Positions 1 through 58,619 of a stretch of 58,619 nt of DNA are shown here, piece by piece. The DNA is taken from positions 1-58,619 of IMG/VR virus record IMGVR_UViG_3300030202_000422; one strand, 5' to 3'. The position numbers and the translations under genes are program-made. The stretch's first letter is position 1. Each line of letters opens with the position of its first letter. The notes beneath the pieces were generated by a model, which worked only from the letters and a program-made list of their open reading frames with translations, was not told the origin of the DNA and did not search any database. The stretch comes from a virus.

Positions 1-168
1 CCACAGATTAAGCCCACGGTTCTGCCACTCGATTGTTATCAGATTCATAGACCGTCTGGCTGTACGAAGATCATATCCAGAACGCATTTCTCGACCAGCA
101 CGTTCCCACGCTTCTTCAGCGATCTCCGTGAAGTCCATGTTGAATGCGGTTGTGCCAGAAGTAGCCAT
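1..168 (-). CDS. Head-tail adaptor-like protein, N-terminal fragment (copy 1)
   Basis: Only the first 56 codons lie in the window; the gene runs off the left edge. It starts at an ATG directly after the stop of the 102-aa gene upstream. The 56 residues match the N-terminus of the complete 229-aa protein at 56952-57641 at all but three positions, while the DNA has drifted at many silent sites apart from a 41-bp identical stretch (98-138 and 57571-57611). By that match it is a second copy of a small virion connector protein. Function is inferred from the paralog and from its place after the capsid genes. Confidence 0.8.
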   Translation of the reverse strand, partial: MATSGTTAFNMDFTEIAEEAWERAGREMRSGYDLRTARRSMNLITIEWQNRGLNLW

Positions 169-477
169 CTATTTCTTCTTAGTTGCAGCTTTCTTTTTAG
201 CTGGGGCTTTCTTTTTTATAGCGGGTTCTTCTACCCACGCCTCGTTTTCTGGGGTATCGGGATCATCAGCTATAAACTGACCCTCATCAGTTCTTGCACG
301 AGTGCGCTTAGTCTCTGTTGCGGGCTGTAACTCAGCTAATGCTGCGTTTGCCTCTTCTTCACTCATCAAATTAGCATTTACGATATCGTAAGTACCGTCT
401 TCTTTATTATTACGAACTTGAAAGACGGGCCTTCCGTCTGAAAAGTTTCCGTTCTGGAATACTTCTAAATCAGCCAT
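169..477 (-). CDS. Small protein with lysine-rich tail, unknown function
   Basis: 102 aa. The N-terminal 50 residues are mixed and acidic; the last 20 are almost all Lys, Ala and Pro (IKKKAPAKKKAATKKK). Such a tail could bind DNA or be carried in the virion, but I do not recognise the family. It overlaps the upstream 113-aa gene by 8 nt and abuts the truncated adaptor copy, so it is in the late operon. The second copy of this block at the right edge has no counterpart of this gene. Confidence 0.75.
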   Translation of the reverse strand: MADLEVFQNGNFSDGRPVFQVRNNKEDGTYDIVNANLMSEEEANAALAELQPATETKRTRARTDEGQFIADDPDTPENEAWVEEPAIKKKAPAKKKAATKKK

Positions 478-811
478 TTTTACTACCTCTCACATATAAA
501 GTTTTCTTACGCCTTCCTTTACGAACTTTACCGCAGCCTTTATGGTGCTCTCGCATTAAACCACCATCAAATGCAGTTCTAACCTTTGCTTTCTTCGTGT
601 TTGCTACTACTTGCTGGCCCCCTGCCCCTGCTTTCTTCTTCTTTCTAGCAGTTTTAGCTCGTTCTGCCTGACTAAGAGACTGTGCTTTTGCTTTCGGCAA
701 ACATCGATCTGGGTTCTTTTTATTCTCTGACGTACCGCACGGACCTTTTATCTTGCCATCTGTGCCGATACGAACCCACTGTTGGTCACGCCATTGCTTT
801 AATTGTCCCAT
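470..811 (-). CDS. Basic micro-protein MGQLKQW family (copy 1)
   Basis: 113 aa, strongly basic. It starts MGQLKQWRDQQWVRIGTDG, has Cys residues around GPCGTS and DRCLPKAK, an ARKKKKAG stretch and a C-terminal HKGCG...RRKKTLYV segment. A paralog of 112 aa lies at 57638-57976, nearly identical over its first half. Small proteins of this type occur among structural genes of marine phages (memory, unchecked); function is unknown. The paired Cys and basic runs suggest nucleic-acid or metal binding, which is inference. The start overlaps the stop of the 94-aa gene by one base. Confidence 0.8.
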   Translation of the reverse strand: MGQLKQWRDQQWVRIGTDGKIKGPCGTSENKKNPDRCLPKAKAQSLSQAERAKTARKKKKAGAGGQQVVANTKKAKVRTAFDGGLMREHHKGCGKVRKGRRKKTLYVRGSKNG

Positions 812-1095
812 CAGCCAGCCTTCCTAGCTCTACGTATAGCTTCTTTACCACGCTTCGCAATATCTGCTTGAGTATGTTTACCCGCTGCCTTAGCCCTCTG
901 TTCTAACACCGTAAGTATCTGTATCTTCCTAGCAAAAGGCTTCCTTACTTTTTTAACCTTAGCCACAGTGTCACGAGCATCCTGTGCAGTAGCGTACTTT
1001 ATAGATACAGTATCTTTAGGATTCTCATCCGTATACAGCCTTCTACCACTACCCTTCGGCTTTTTACCTGTTCCTACTTTAGGATCTTTAGCCAT
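811..1095 (-). CDS. Conserved basic micro-protein, unknown function
   Basis: 94 aa starting MAKDPKVGTGKKPKGSGRR, with a central helical segment ending in RRARKAG. I recall close relatives with the same opening (KPKGSGRRLYTDENPKDTV) in marine phages and viruses, always without assigned function. It sits between two micro-genes with one-base TAATG junctions, which supports translational coupling in the late operon. It is absent from the second copy of the block near the right edge. Confidence 0.8.
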   Translation of the reverse strand: MAKDPKVGTGKKPKGSGRRLYTDENPKDTVSIKYATAQDARDTVAKVKKVRKPFARKIQILTVLEQRAKAAGKHTQADIAKRGKEAIRRARKAG

Positions 1096-1274
1096 TACTT
1101 CTTCTTTTTCTTGCTGCCTTTGGCGTAGTTAGGATCTTTGCAGTATTTAGAAGCTGCCATGTTTGCATAAGCTGACGGGTATGTATCGAAAGTCCGTTTA
1201 GCCCACGCCTTTCCTTTCGGGCAGATTTTTCCACCCGACTTAACTTTACCGCCTGACTTATAGTATCTTCTCAT
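1095..1274 (-). CDS. 59-aa basic micro-protein MRRYYKSGG family (copy 1)
   Basis: Sixty codons from the ATG at 1274 to TAA at 1095. The product begins MRRYYKSGGKVKSGGK, has CPKGKAWAKRTFDTYPSAYA in the middle and ends in a lysine run. It starts inside the ATGA overlap with the 176-aa gene and ends in a TAATG overlap with the 94-aa gene. A second copy at 57976-58155 is identical except near the last residues. The two conserved Cys (CPKGK, KYCKD) could bind metal. Function unknown. Confidence 0.8.
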   Translation of the reverse strand: MRRYYKSGGKVKSGGKICPKGKAWAKRTFDTYPSAYANMAASKYCKDPNYAKGSKKKKK

Positions 1275-1801
1275 CGCATCTTCGTTGGTCTTACACCCTT
1301 ACGAGCTATTCCAGCACCTCTGACCTTTGGTTTAGAAGCTTTCTTCTTGGTAGCCATCTTAGACTTCATACCACCAACTGCGTAGCCTTTAGACTTCATC
1401 TTCATGCCGCCTTTAGCCATACCTTTAGACTTCATCTTCATGCCGCCTTTAGCCATACCCTTAGCTTTCATCTTCATGCCGCCTTTTTTAAATCTTAATG
1501 GAGCTTCATCTTTCGGTGGCCTAAGTAGATCCGACTTCCCACTACGTCCAGCTATTTCTTCTTTAGCCATCTTCTTATCGCGCTTTGTGTCCTGCATTTT
1601 TCGCGTAGATTCTGGTTTTTGAGTTCTTTTAACGCCTATATTGGCTGTACCTGCCTTATCACTAATAGCTGAATCACGTTTTTTAATTTGGTCTTTGGCC
1701 TTATCCACAGCCGCTTTGCCAAATTTCATCGTCGCTGCTCTGGCTCCATTCGCCATTAAAAATTTAGCTGCTGCTCCTAATACTGGTAGTGCTACTGGCA
1801 T
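1271..1801 (-). CDS. Repeat-bearing basic protein with KVRGAGIARKG tail
   Basis: 176 aa. The N-terminal third is helical (GAAAKFLMANGARAATMKFG). The middle is charged, followed by four tandem repeats of roughly 10-11 residues (KGGMKMKSKGMA type), and the C-terminus reads KVRGAGIARKGVRPTKMR. The same tail ends the proteins at 58152-58478 and 58488-58619, so they form a small paralogous set. Met/Lys/Gly-rich repeats like these recur in marine phage virion genes; function is unknown. It overlaps the next micro-gene by 4 nt. Confidence 0.75.
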   Translation of the reverse strand: MPVALPVLGAAAKFLMANGARAATMKFGKAAVDKAKDQIKKRDSAISDKAGTANIGVKRTQKPESTRKMQDTKRDKKMAKEEIAGRSGKSDLLRPPKDEAPLRFKKGGMKMKAKGMAKGGMKMKSKGMAKGGMKMKSKGYAVGGMKSKMATKKKASKPKVRGAGIARKGVRPTKMR

Positions 1802-2480: not shown

Positions 2481-2804
2481 TTAGCATCTCCATCTTTTTC
2501 GCGCCTGACGCAGCCTTGAGTTAGGGTCTTTTGCTGCTTTAGGGAATTTTTTCATTTGACCTGCTGAACGAGCACAGAAAGACTTTCTACGCTTCGCTCG
2601 ACTGCCCGAAGGACTTTTTTCAGTAACCGCCGTCTTTAACTTACTGCCGGGGTTCTGTCGTCTATATTTAGCAACGCCTTTTGCTGTCATACCAGCGCCA
2701 GACTTAGTGGGACGTTTATCCCCGCTCTTTATAGACATACCAGACATACCACCCCTCTTGAAGGAAGGGCAGCTTTCTGGTTTCTTTTTGTAGTAGCTAC
2801 GCAT
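2481..2804 (-). CDS. Basic FCARSAG-type micro-protein
   Basis: 107 aa, very basic. It opens MRSYYKKKPESCPSFKRGGM and ends with the pattern KRRKSFCARSAGQMKK...RRKRWRC-like. I recall the ending (K..FCAR......KDPNSR...RRW.C) as a widespread marine virus family of unknown function, perhaps filed as a DUF; not checked. Spaced Cys residues and basic charge suggest binding to nucleic acid or metal. It overlaps the 203-aa gene upstream by 8 nt. Confidence 0.75.
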   Translation of the reverse strand: MRSYYKKKPESCPSFKRGGMSGMSIKSGDKRPTKSGAGMTAKGVAKYRRQNPGSKLKTAVTEKSPSGSRAKRRKSFCARSAGQMKKFPKAAKDPNSRLRQARKRWRC

Positions 2805-4086: not shown

Positions 4087-4995
4087 TTAGGCTCCGGGTG
4101 ATCCGAAAATTCCGAGTGGGTCACTTACCCCAAACGAATACCTTTCTCTCGCTTTATAACGAGAGTTGCCCGTATCAAAGTCTGCATCCATAGATGTAGC
4201 CATTGGTGAACGAACAAAGTGCTTCAGACCGTTTGGTATGTCAGTCGTTAAGAAAAACGCATCGGTATCGGTCAAATAATGATTGATTGTGTAACCACCC
4301 GGTACAGAACCGTTGTTACGCAATGCGTTCAAGTCATTATCAGCCGTTCCAACCCTACCTTCAGTCTCTAACAAACGAGTTGCTACGAACTGTAGATTTG
4401 GTGGGATAACCAAAGTATTTGGTCTTGCAGCGATTAACAATCCACGCTCATCAGTCCATCCAGCTATCTGAATGACGGCGGCTTCCAAAGAAGTCTCGTT
4501 CAAATCAGCAGCCACAGCGGGTCTGTTTGAGTTAGTGCCGCCAGAAACTAGCGGGTGTGCCGTTGAACACAGAGTCTGTCCGTCACCATAAGTAGTACCT
4601 GCTGCAAACGCATTATTAAGAATGGTAGCTGCTTTAACTTGCTTGGTGTACGCCATTGCTCGGGCCAAAGCCTTCGTATATCTTGCTGATAACGAGTCAT
4701 ACAGATTATCTTCGATTGCTTCTTCCGTAATCGAAAATCCCATAGCAATAGTTTCGTGCGTGTACCTTGCGGTGAACGCCTCTTGTGCGTTGTCATACTC
4801 AATTGCAGCGCCTTCGTCTTTGACGGGGGCAGCAGAAAAGCCTGACAACTTGGTTTCTTCTTCAAAAGAACGGTCAGAAGTCTCTGATTCAAAGATTTCT
4901 TTATGCTCTTCTCCATACTTAGCATACTCCATTCCGAACAAAGCGTTCAGTCCGGGCAGGAGTTCTTTAAGTAATTGCGCTCTTGAAATAGCCAT
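4087..4995 (-). CDS. Major capsid protein (Mu gpT / HK97-fold type)
   Basis: 302 aa. It has the pattern of Mu-like major head subunits: an N-terminal helix (LLKELLPGLNALFG), a central ITEEAIEDNLYD...LARAMAYTKQ region, the strongly conserved DGQTLCSTAHPLVSGGT segment, and an IAARPNTLVIPP...EGRVGTADND stretch. This shell protein is assembled on the scaffold encoded two genes upstream. Length fits the family. There is no obvious N-terminal delta domain, in keeping with a separate scaffold. A strong terminator follows directly, as expected for the most abundant late product. Confidence 0.9.
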   Translation of the reverse strand: MAISRAQLLKELLPGLNALFGMEYAKYGEEHKEIFESETSDRSFEEETKLSGFSAAPVKDEGAAIEYDNAQEAFTARYTHETIAMGFSITEEAIEDNLYDSLSARYTKALARAMAYTKQVKAATILNNAFAAGTTYGDGQTLCSTAHPLVSGGTNSNRPAVAADLNETSLEAAVIQIAGWTDERGLLIAARPNTLVIPPNLQFVATRLLETEGRVGTADNDLNALRNNGSVPGGYTINHYLTDTDAFFLTTDIPNGLKHFVRSPMATSMDADFDTGNSRYKARERYSFGVSDPLGIFGSPGA

Positions 4996-55805: not shown

Positions 55806-56444
55806 TTATGTTACCGCCTGCTTATATTGGCCTTCTCTGTACGTATCACCACGTAGCTTACCGTCACCCATGTTTTTCAACAACGTAATAGACTGTAAAT
55901 ACATCTGTTGGTACATCTGAACCAAATCAGGCTCACCTTTCATAAACCGTATGGCTTCTACCAAAGAACCATTTAACAACGCGGAATCAAAGTTCTCGCC
56001 CAACCACGGAAGTGTGCTTGCTGTAACAATAGACTCAGGGTAGTAGCCGTAATGCAACTCAGCAGTTAGGTCTGCGCTAGGGGTGGGGCCAAGTATAAAC
56101 GTGCCATCATTAAAATTAGCGTAGTGTTTAGGCGTACCTGTGCTAGTCGGCGTGGGGTATGCTTCCCTAATAAAATTAACATCTTTATCAAGTAAGAAGT
56201 CATACGATCCATCAGAATTGACTATGGCTAGACTATACACATACAAAAAGTCAGACGGTACGGCTAGGTATTTGTTACCGCTGGTAACAGAACCAGTTAC
56301 GTTTTTACGAAGCGCAGGAAGCTGAACCGTGTTATATATGGTCTGCTCTGCCTGTTTTGTAAACAATGCAAGCTGGTCGCTTGTAAACGTAGTCTCACAA
56401 ATATCTTGTATATTTGCGGTCAGTTCTGAGTAGGTCATACTCAT
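55806..56444 (-). CDS. Head-tail adaptor-like protein (212 aa)
   Basis: 212 aa. The N-terminal helix bundle (YSELTANIQDICETTFTSDQLALFTKQAEQTIYNTVQLPALR) precedes a beta part (YLAVPSDFLYVYSLAIV, HYANFNDGTFILGPTPSADLTAELHYGYYPE) and returns to helices. This is the arrangement of P22 gp4/T7 gp11-type adaptor proteins that sit below the portal. It lies two genes from the 229-aa adaptor. Function from fold pattern and position. Confidence 0.7.
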   Translation of the reverse strand: MSMTYSELTANIQDICETTFTSDQLALFTKQAEQTIYNTVQLPALRKNVTGSVTSGNKYLAVPSDFLYVYSLAIVNSDGSYDFLLDKDVNFIREAYPTPTSTGTPKHYANFNDGTFILGPTPSADLTAELHYGYYPESIVTASTLPWLGENFDSALLNGSLVEAIRFMKGEPDLVQMYQQMYLQSITLLKNMGDGKLRGDTYREGQYKQAVT

Positions 56445-56447
56445 AAA

Positions 56448-56585
56448 TTACGCCATCGGCCCTCTTGCCATCGTTCCTTTGGTAGCTGCACCCGTACCAC
56501 GAACTTTAATTCCAGTGGTTTTTACACCCTTCATATCTGTCTGGGGTGCGCCTTTTACAGGTTTTACCGTGCTTATATTTTTCAT
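56448..56585 (-). CDS. 45-aa micro-protein with KVRGTGAATKG motif
   Basis: ATG 56585 to TAA 56448: MKNISTVKPVKGAPQTDMKG... ending KVRGTGAATKGTMARGPMA. The ending is a variant of the KVRGAGIARKG tail found in the paralogous set near both edges. It fits the gap between neighbouring genes exactly. Function unknown. Confidence 0.7.
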   Translation of the reverse strand: MKNISTVKPVKGAPQTDMKGVKTTGIKVRGTGAATKGTMARGPMA

Positions 56586-56593
56586 AACATCAC

Positions 56594-56959
56594 CTAAGTT
56601 GTTGTTACCGTTACCGTACCTACTTCTCCAGTAGCCACTAAATCATTAGGAGTAAGGTCGAAAGGATCTCTACCTGCCCCAACTGGGTTAAATCCATATT
56701 GTATCTGGCGGCTACTGTTTACTCCAGCTTCACCCAAACTTCTATCTGGTCTTGGGTCACGTATAGCCTGTGGATCATTAATAGGAAACTCACCCAACTT
56801 CAACTGCGGGTGGTCGGGACTCCAACACTCAGGACAGGCTTTTAAGTTTGTATCTCGCCCTTTACGTATTAGATTTTTTAATTGACGTAACTTATAACGA
56901 AAACCACATATATCGCACATAGCGACTGCGATTTTCTTTGATGCAAACTGCCTAGACAT
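56594..56959 (-). CDS. Zinc-ribbon protein of the tail module
   Basis: 121 aa. Cys15-x2-Cys18 and Cys42-x2-Cys45 (MCDICGFRYKLRQLKNL...ACPECWSPDHPQ) form a probable zinc ribbon; the rest is flexible and Pro/Arg-rich, with a short beta end TVTVTT. Overlaps the 229-aa gene by 8 nt. It may be a small structural or assembly factor held together by zinc. Confidence 0.75.
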   Translation of the reverse strand: MSRQFASKKIAVAMCDICGFRYKLRQLKNLIRKGRDTNLKACPECWSPDHPQLKLGEFPINDPQAIRDPRPDRSLGEAGVNSSRQIQYGFNPVGAGRDPFDLTPNDLVATGEVGTVTVTTT

Positions 56960-57641
56960 AACTTATTTTAGGTACAAACCTAGCTGGAGTTTTTACCCGG
57001 TCCTCTTCAGAAGCTAATCTAAATTGTTCTTCATAGATTTCTTTAAGGAGAGGTATACGAGGTGCTAACTCTGGTTCTTTCATGGCTATGTAATAAGCAA
57101 GTCCTGCTACAAGACAAGGTAAAAATCTAAAGTTCATATCAGCAGTTTCTACTCCACTGCCAGCGTCTTGAACCCTTCGCATACGATAGTATTTAAATAT
57201 ATACGTATCGTTTTTATCTGGTACAGGCCACACATTGATTGTCGGATTGTCTCGTAGTCGCTCTATCCATACCTGTATCGGCCTACCCTGCGTTAGTTTA
57301 TTTGGTATAGACGCATAAGTACTGACACTAATACGGTTTATGGTTAAATCTTGCTGAGTAGTAGTGTTACCGCTATCAGTACGTATGACCTGTTCTAGTA
57401 AATCAATCGTGTCGGCGGGTAAATCATACTCTGATGTGCCTTTTACGAGCGTTACTGTGCCTTCATCAATAGTCCACAGATTAAGGCCACGATTCTGCCA
57501 CTCTATAGTCAACAGATTCATAGAACGTCTAGCAGTGCGTAGGTCGTACCCTGAACGCATTTCACGGCCCGCACGTTCCCACGCTTCTTCAGCGATCTCC
57601 GTGAAGTCCATATCAAATGCTGTTGTTCCAGATGTTGTCAT
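56952..57641 (-). CDS. Head-tail adaptor-like protein (copy 2, complete)
   Basis: 229 aa. The N-terminal helices (DFTEIAEEAWERAGREMRSGYDLRTARRSMNLLTIEWQNRGLNLW) are followed by beta segments with EGTVTLVKGTSEYDLPADTIDLLE and QVWIERLRDNPTINVWPVPDKNDTYIFKYYRMRR, and then helices with ALYYIAMK-type packing. This is the pattern of T7 gp11/P22 gp4-like connector proteins. A truncated second copy lies at the left edge. Overlaps the next micro-gene by 4 nt. Confidence 0.78.
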   Translation of the reverse strand: MTTSGTTAFDMDFTEIAEEAWERAGREMRSGYDLRTARRSMNLLTIEWQNRGLNLWTIDEGTVTLVKGTSEYDLPADTIDLLEQVIRTDSGNTTTQQDLTINRISVSTYASIPNKLTQGRPIQVWIERLRDNPTINVWPVPDKNDTYIFKYYRMRRVQDAGSGVETADMNFRFLPCLVAGLAYYIAMKEPELAPRIPLLKEIYEEQFRLASEEDRVKTPARFVPKISYV

Positions 57642-57976
57642 GGCCTATTACCTTGTACGTACAGCGTCTTCTTCCTACGCTTGTTCATTACTGCGCCACA
57701 GCCTTTGTGATTTGCGCGTATTGGGCCACCAGCTTTCGCTGTTTTAACCTTGGCTTTGGGAGTATTAGATACTACCTGCTGCCCTGTGGCACCTGCCTTT
57801 TTCTTCTTACGCGCTGTGGTAGCACGTTCAGACTGGCTCAGTGACTGTGCTTTAGCTTTAGGTAGGCAGCGATCTGGGTTCTTTTTGTCTTTCGACGTGC
57901 CGCATGGCCCTTTGATCTTGCCATCGGTGCCAATACGAACCCACTGCTGATCCCGCCACTGTTTAAGCTGCCCCAT
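57638..57976 (-). CDS. Basic micro-protein MGQLKQW family (copy 2)
   Basis: 112 aa, paralog of the 113-aa protein at 470-811: identical in the first 28 residues and very close to residue 65, with a more divergent end (GGPIRANHKGCGAVMNKRRKKTLYV). The DNA differs mostly at third positions, showing an old duplication under selection. Same gene order and same one-base overlap with the 59-aa gene as in copy 1. Function unknown. Confidence 0.8.
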   Translation of the reverse strand: MGQLKQWRDQQWVRIGTDGKIKGPCGTSKDKKNPDRCLPKAKAQSLSQSERATTARKKKKAGATGQQVVSNTPKAKVKTAKAGGPIRANHKGCGAVMNKRRKKTLYVQGNRP

Positions 57977-58155
57977 TACTTACTCTTCTTCTTGCTGCCC
58001 TTAGCATAGTTAGGGTCTTTGCAATACTTAGAAGCCGCCATGTTCGCATAAGCAGACGGGTAGGTATCAAACGTACGCTTGGCCCACGCTTTGCCTTTCG
58101 GGCAGATCTTACCGCCCGACTTCACCTTACCGCCTGACTTATAATAACGTCTCAT
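57976..58155 (-). CDS. 59-aa basic micro-protein MRRYYKSGG family (copy 2)
   Basis: ATG 58155 to TAA 57976, same length as copy 1 at 1095-1274 and identical apart from the last residues (KKKSK instead of KKKKK). Starts in an ATGA overlap with the 108-aa gene. Here the next gene is the MGQLKQW family member directly, since the 94-aa gene found between them in copy 1 is absent. Confidence 0.8.
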   Translation of the reverse strand: MRRYYKSGGKVKSGGKICPKGKAWAKRTFDTYPSAYANMAASKYCKDPNYAKGSKKKSK

Positions 58156-58478
58156 CGCATCTTCGCTGGACGTACGCCCTTACGAGCTATGCCAGCGCCT
58201 CTTACTTTGCCACCCTTTTTGTAGCCCTTATACAGACTAGGGTTTTCTTTTATACGCTGTCGTTTTTTCTTCTGAGCAGCTTTTTTTCTTTTCTCTTCAG
58301 CTAGGCGTTTTTCTCGGTATGCAAGTATTTCTTCCATAGTTAGCCTGTCTTCTGACATACCGGGAATAAGACCTCTAACTCCTTCTTTCTCATATCCAGC
58401 ACCAAAAACATCTTTGCGAGCTTCGTTTAGTTCTCCAATAAAACTAAATGGCCCTTTGCTTTTTTTATCTTTAGCCAT
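58152..58478 (-). CDS. Helical basic protein with KVRGAGIARKG tail
   Basis: 108 aa. A short N-terminal part (FSFIGELNEARKDVFGAGYEKEG) leads to a charged helix (MEEILAYREKRLAEEKRKKAAQKKKRQRI), and the tail GYKKGGKVRGAGIARKGVRPAKMR is shared with the 176-aa protein and the edge fragment. It occupies the place of the 176-aa gene in the duplicated block, but only the tail is alike. Function unknown. Confidence 0.72.
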   Translation of the reverse strand: MAKDKKSKGPFSFIGELNEARKDVFGAGYEKEGVRGLIPGMSEDRLTMEEILAYREKRLAEEKRKKAAQKKKRQRIKENPSLYKGYKKGGKVRGAGIARKGVRPAKMR

Positions 58479-58487
58479 ACCTAACTC

Positions 58488-58619
58488 CTAACGCATCTTC
58501 GCTGGACGTACACCCTTACGAGCGATACCGGCACCGCGAACCTTCTGTGTAGTAGGCTTCTTACCGCCTTTAGCACCACCTTTTGAAGACATCTTAGACT
58601 TCATGCCACCTTTGGCGAA
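58488..58619 (-). CDS. C-terminal fragment of a third KVRGAGIARKG-tailed protein
   Basis: The last 43 codons of a gene that enters from the right edge: GGMKSKM repeats, then KVRGAGIARKGVRPAKMR and TAG at 58488. The GGMKSK part is like the repeats in the 176-aa protein at 1271-1801, so this is its closest paralog. The end of the window interrupts the gene. Confidence 0.75.
   Translation of the reverse strand, partial: FAKGGMKSKMSSKGGAKGGKKPTTQKVRGAGIARKGVRPAKMR

Follow-up and report, generated by a model that had tools for sequence, protein, structure and literature searches.

In a large lineage of short-tailed phages from aquatic habitats, most of them uncultured, several small, fast-changing, apparently disordered proteins encoded beside the head-tail connector genes all finish in one basic sequence of 16–19 residues. 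On balance we give an even chance to the reading of this tail as a portable docking tag at the C-terminus, which would tether variable basic proteins in the head or neck of the virion.

We analyzed a 58,619-nucleotide stretch of viral DNA (hereafter the window), in which three minus-strand ORFs end in the 18-residue sequence KVRGAGIARKGVRPxKMR (class A). Specifically, these ORFs are a long gene encoding a 176-aa protein (1271..1801, with the tail KVRGAGIARKGVRPTKMR, x being T, at 1274-1327) that occupies an orthologous slot in relatives, a short gene encoding a 108-aa protein (58152..58478, with the tail KVRGAGIARKGVRPAKMR, x being A, at 58155-58208), and a fragment truncated by the window edge (58488..58619, with the tail KVRGAGIARKGVRPAKMR, x again A, at 58491-58544). 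A 45-aa protein, encoded on the minus strand directly upstream of the second of two adaptor genes (56448..56585), ends in the class-B tail KVRGTGAATKGTMARGPMA (56451-56507). A degenerate DNA pattern for the core of the tail matched the window at exactly these four places and no other, whereas dinucleotide-shuffled versions gave a mean of 0.23 matches and none of 100 shuffles reached four. Both the basic tail shared by three ORF ends and its variant on the 45-aa protein, as described in a first-pass annotation, are thus confirmed, the four matches lying far above shuffle expectation. Because the tails of the window differ in codon at many synonymous sites, their identity is one of protein.

The same annotation counted three late proteins with different bodies. 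The tail is indeed present on all three ORFs, but the three reduce to two genes plus a haplotype copy of one of them. Alignment of the two ends of the window (1-1801 and 56952-58619) revealed colinear homologous DNA with 74-85% nucleotide identity, each end containing a tail gene, the gene of a small basic protein that we call YPSAYAN, that of a second, MGQLKQW, and an adaptor gene. Tail genes are paired in the relatives L028, L033, L048, L050, and L102, a long one preceding one that resembles the 108-aa gene (near-identical in L050), and the pair follows a gene for a 224-aa protein and precedes the YPSAYAN gene wherever those genes fall within the fetched stretch. Because of this paired order, we take the edge fragment to be the C-terminus of a long tail gene, and it reads as the other haplotype of the 176-aa gene rather than as a third protein. 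The window itself is best described as a circularly permuted phage genome with a map of ~57.2 kb, whose ends overlap with two strain haplotypes; the overlap is read from alignment and synteny rather than from sequencing reads. One such genome would carry two adjacent class-A tail genes and one class-B (45-aa) gene. Genes for a 94-aa and a 102-aa protein are present in the left haplotype and absent from the right, and the 108-aa tail gene is in the right haplotype.

The pattern search of phage sequences that the annotation had proposed was run on IMG/VR and found the tag on mostly unrelated bodies. Scans for classes A, B, and D (the last defined by the pattern RGDGCAxRGxTKG) returned at least 592 tail ORFs in at least 378 loci, numbers that are lower bounds and give the size of a collection rather than a prevalence. 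The variants RGAGIA, RGDGCA/RADGIA, and RGTGAA all belong to one syntenic phage lineage. Among the matches listed, 26,883 unique ORFs contain 541 copies of the core RGxG[ICAVM]AxxG (compared with 4 matches in residue-shuffled and 2 in reversed proteins), and in 517 of the 541 copies the motif is C-terminal, with 15-18 residues from its start to the stop. Most of the loci were picked by a DNA motif irrespective of its position within a gene, and a scan for rare endings alone required a stop codon, so the C-terminal bias was not built in. With the class-A DNA pattern, the tail ends at a stop codon in 115 of 119 IMG/VR loci. In bacterial genomes the class-A pattern gave 117 matches with no C-terminal tail among them, and the class-D pattern gave no match; thus no prophage or host copies were found. 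Counted by the strict pattern, tails of the 16-residue type number one to three per fetched locus, and the 17-residue B type is present exactly once in each locus that has it. Eight of the 36 B-pattern-only loci that span capsid to adaptor contain a strict A or D tail, and the other 28 mostly have a variant tail such as RADGIAQRGKTRGKMC.

A minority of tags continue past the usual end in a short conserved extension, VxMKG[AS] in class A (loci including L018, L020, L043, L062, L099, L116, and L380) and VMCGGGM in class D (L161, L224, and L247; VMCGGGMYKK is seen). The tag therefore does not strictly depend on a free carboxylate at a set position. The extended variants also count against the tail being an assembly or stability signal, that is, a site that a chaperone such as the phage's GroES-like protein, or a protease, would recognize, or a mark of scaffolding that leaves before maturation. 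We regard such a signal as highly improbable: a GroES-like gene does lie in the same cluster, and a protease had been suggested in the first-pass annotation, but the idea has no direct support and no shared cleavage-like site turned up.

That the tail is a module, and not a remnant of gene duplication, is clearest from its presence on two otherwise independent proteins. The class-D tag is appended, via different linkers, to 8 of 222 complete DUF6321 proteins (L154 1117-1437, L145 1288-1602, L385 4489-4839, and five more loci), where it follows the ...RWxC with which untagged DUF6321 proteins normally end, and the YPSAYAN protein of Pelagibacter phage HTVC023P ends in the tag RGGGAAVRGMGFKGVF. 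These additions, together with the C-terminal position of 517 of 541 core motifs, support the proposal that a short tail retained on unrelated bodies works as a tag. Recent full-length duplication followed by divergence of the bodies, which the annotation had itself set against its proposal, fails on the numbers: in phages with ~87%-identical adaptors, the tails are 89% identical and the bodies 41% (27% when shuffled). Moreover, the bodies of the short and the long gene show no homology to each other.

The amino acids of the tags are clearly under purifying selection, with pN/pS values of 0.30 (A), 0.26 (D), and 0.20 (B) and synonymous sites near saturation (pS ~0.66-0.73). Within a genome, tags resemble one another more than expected. 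In 83 genome fragments with at least two D-type tags (190 tags, 5000 shuffles), tags of one genome share residue 7 in 53% of pairs (22% when shuffled), residue 10 in 90% (79%), and the last two residues in 25% (13%), in each case with 0 of 5000 shuffles; in class A this likeness is present and weaker. Such likeness suggests either a common partner or concerted evolution, and coevolution of the tags with a partner is suggested by it. Codons at shared residues are also more often identical within genomes than expected from codon usage (A, 0.63 against 0.35; D, 0.49 against 0.36), and one half of the L050 tails has identical codons while the other half does not, so recombination or shared ancestry adds to the within-genome likeness. 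The same codon excess and half-tail sharing could be cited for a quite different account, namely that the tail is a stretch of conserved 3′ DNA promoting recombination between adjacent small genes, or is plain descent from duplication. We think this scarcely credible, given that amino acids are held (pN/pS 0.20-0.30) where synonymous sites are near saturation, that the DUF6321 tails are attached via different linkers, and that the bodies of short and long genes are not homologous. By the pN/pS values, a cause at the level of DNA, whether recombination or RNA, was likewise disfavored.

The bodies of A- and D-tagged proteins are basic (median pI 10.2, 16% Lys, 12% Gly), abundant in KGG-type repeats, and poor in the residues FWYILVC (14%, compared with 27-33% in capsid and adaptors); from their composition they are apparently disordered. 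An EF-hand-like loop module (DLTGDGKVTxxDxLxGRGV) is common to A, B, and D bodies (L012 1801-1986, L013 4764-5282, L245 4781-5362), which suggests modular shuffling of short calcium-binding-like elements. A second module, KQxRFMxAxANNPKFAKK (phrog_16759), forms the N-terminus of the tagged proteins L006 6242-6757 and L206 2430-2630. Because it is found in unrelated phages such as phiKZ (PHIKZ165.1), as well as in PHROGs called 'virion structural protein', we treat it as a weak lead. A Pfam scan of ten tagged proteins, the longest included, gave no convincing domain and no enzyme or inhibitor.

Basic composition raises the possibility that the tail is simply a nucleic-acid-binding peptide, body and tail together forming a DNA-condensing or RNA-binding protein that has no protein docking partner. 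Tails and bodies rich in Lys, Arg, and Gly fit this idea, as do the equally basic DUF6321, YPSAYAN, and MGQLKQW neighbors. Charge alone, however, would not fix the spacing, the Gly and Ala positions, or the distance to the stop, nor does it explain why tags of one genome share uncharged residues (residue 7 and the last two), and we consider the idea unlikely. We are similarly doubtful of a scheme in which the tail loads ejected anti-defense or host-takeover proteins into the prohead via scaffold or capsid, the bodies being effectors in an arms race. Rapid turnover of bodies behind a fixed tag, one to four genes per slot, and modular bodies with short modules found across classes all follow the logic of the T4 internal proteins (PMC3012670). 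Yet the bodies appear disordered and of low complexity, unlike folded effectors, the ten proteins scanned contain no enzyme or inhibitor domain, and no head protease, which T4 targeting sequences need for their removal, is found among the late proteins scanned.

Having weighed these alternatives, we return to the docking reading and to the place of the tag genes, which fill the interval between the major capsid protein and two head-to-tail adaptors. The backbone order is TerL, portal, GroES, scaffold, 150, 197, capsid, 182, 203, DUF6321, and 224, then the A or D tags, YPSAYAN, MGQLKQW, 102, and the adaptor, and then a Cys-rich 121, the B tag, 212, 96, 142, repeats, and fibre. A and D tags share one slot: measured from the first adaptor, their median starts lie 1355 and 1364 bases upstream. 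The B tag is next to the 212-aa gene, ~1.26 kb downstream of where the first adaptor starts. Significant tag matches are within a few kb of each other in 16 long viral records (46-71 kb). In the window the upstream boundary of the interval is the major capsid protein gene (4087..4995, minus strand; assigned by phrog_371 and synteny), and downstream of the class-A tail genes lies that of the first adaptor, a predicted 229-aa protein (56952..57641, minus strand) whose AlphaFold model, of modest confidence (pLDDT 70), matches by Foldseek the portal-tail adaptors in the solved podophage necks of cyanophage A4, VP1, GP4, and SU10 and T7 gp11. The 212-aa protein adjoining the class-B gene (55806..56444, minus strand) likewise has a predicted adaptor fold, its model matching adaptors of VP1, Pa223, SU10, and GP4. 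One genome thus encodes two adaptor-fold proteins, and between them are the class-B tail gene and a conserved Cys-rich, Zn-ribbon-like protein of 121 aa (56594..56959, minus strand; placed by synteny, its Cys pattern read from sequence). This pair of adaptor genes is reminiscent of the 'dual tubeA' module that PMC10386132 describes for podoviruses.

Three further small basic proteins are encoded in the interval on the minus strand: DUF6321 (2481..2804), whose relatives include the proteins with an appended class-D tail, YPSAYAN (1095..1274; phrog_27331), whose HTVC023P homologue is tailed, and MGQLKQW (phrog_23735; 470..811 in the left haplotype, with its right-haplotype copy at 57638-57976). 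The MGQLKQW proteins of the window have a Cys-Gly basic tail near their end, GCGAVMNKRRKKTLYV, which recurs in 100 of 273 relatives and is possibly another tail class. When tail class (A or D) was compared with trees of neighboring proteins, those of the capsid and neck among them, most trees called for one to four changes and the tree of the 142-aa protein for 11, so the tags are inherited vertically with the head and neck backbone. No single docking partner was singled out by these change counts.

Database searches placed the tagged proteins in no described family. The tail proteins of the window had no match in PHROGs or NCBIfam and none above the cut-off in Pfam; PF19846 (DUF6321) was matched solely by the separate 107-aa protein and not by the 176-aa, 108-aa, or 45-aa proteins. 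A profile of 27 tags gave nothing at E<=10 against all PDB chains, the 45-aa protein had no PDB match, and sequence searches of the PDB found no relative of DUF6321, YPSAYAN, or MGQLKQW. Keyword searches of the literature returned no description of the tag, no paper naming 'DUF6321' or 'Pag-Yong1', and no virion proteomics or structure for any tagged protein. Against named phages, tblastn gave no match for class-A and class-B tails and, for the class-D tail, the Pag-Yong1 group alone (E=3). The tail matches being so weak, named relatives were reached via the portal protein. Named carriers are few, namely the group of Planktothrix phage Pag-Yong1 (308-aa protein UMO75986.1, tail GRDGCAKRGRTKGRFI) and HTVC023P (tagged protein gp51, QGZ17680.1). 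Phage DSL-LC04 (L128 1315-1542) encodes, upstream of the adaptor, a 75-aa protein whose N-terminus, rather than its C-terminus, bears the motif (MAGRGMGCATRGGG). HTVC027P, 023Pt_psg01, CRP-902, and RLK lack the tag despite having the same portal, capsid, and adaptors; no universal neck function therefore needs it, and in the wider lineage it is dispensable or replaceable. Strict co-occurrence of tags with DUF6321, YPSAYAN, and MGQLKQW was dropped as a rule, as HTVC027P and 023Pt_psg01 have these genes and no tag.

Late genes, a C-terminal motif of constant spacing, exchangeable Lys-rich bodies, and several such proteins per genome lead us to favor docking to one site in the particle, and the head/neck gene position, the basic disordered bodies, and precedents in T7 and T4 favor docking in the virion with contact to DNA. 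On this model the tagged proteins would be made late, from genes between those of the capsid and the head-to-tail adaptors, and RGxGxAxxG with the last seven or eight residues would attach to a site that all of them share as the particle assembles, with the head-neck/portal-adaptor channel as its likeliest place. The bodies, long, disordered, and Lys-rich, would lie along the packaged DNA and probably exit the particle together with it. A and D tags would serve one to four interchangeable, fast-evolving proteins, and the single B-tag protein would serve a corresponding site at the second adaptor. What we infer from these sequences is the location in the virion, the docking partner, the contact with DNA, and the ejection. 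More tentatively, the tag may amount to a transferable delivery code, drawing in a shifting set of basic, disordered proteins: any sequence that finishes with RGxGxAxxG and a further seven or eight residues would be brought to one fixed place in the virion and be ejected along with the genome, and another version of the tag would mark the second adaptor. Small basic proteins beside phage neck genes are widespread and nearly all unannotated; the shared tag offers a sequence handle for gathering them and predicts that they are virion components. It is also a compact peptide, a candidate for bringing a reporter into phage particles, and the cultured carriers Pag-Yong1 and HTVC023P make it testable now.

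Two known systems come close. The T4 capsid targeting sequence resembles the tag in being a short terminal sequence on diverse, small, fast-evolving proteins, and here too one tag is found on diverse bodies within one genome. The T4 sequence is N-terminal and is cut off by the prohead protease. By contrast, 517 of 541 tag motifs are C-terminal, with the protein of DSL-LC04 as the single N-terminal case, the tag bears no evidence of cleavage, and the bodies are apparently disordered. No head or prohead protease was found among the late proteins scanned, which are part of the gene set, and capsid matches to protease-fused PHROGs fall in the capsid part. T4 internal proteins are highly diverse, the targeting sequence alone being conserved (PMC3012670).

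The other is the podophage virion protein T7 gp7.3 (and gp6.7), which is small and mostly positively charged with a short C-terminal segment. The positively charged N-terminus of gp7.3 is not resolved around the DNA, its C-terminal loop (residues 84-98, 15 residues) is docked at the nozzle-adaptor junction, and two lysines of this C-terminal segment contact the DNA end (PMC11784390). The proteins described here are likewise small, basic, and, by composition, disordered, with a conserved C-terminal segment and genes in the head/neck region. They differ from gp7.3 in that several proteins per genome share one tag with the core RGxGxAxxG, that their genes lie between those of capsid and adaptor, and that no solved chain in the PDB was detected as a relative of the tag profile. 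As far as tested, the tagged proteins appear to be members of neither the T7 gp7.3 nor the T4 family. DUF6321 (PF19846), phrog_27331, and phrog_23735 share with them the gene interval and a similar basic composition, and in PHROGs a DUF6321-like segment is C-terminal in proteins of up to 928 aa. They are independent sequence families, and the tag can join the domains of DUF6321 and phrog_27331.
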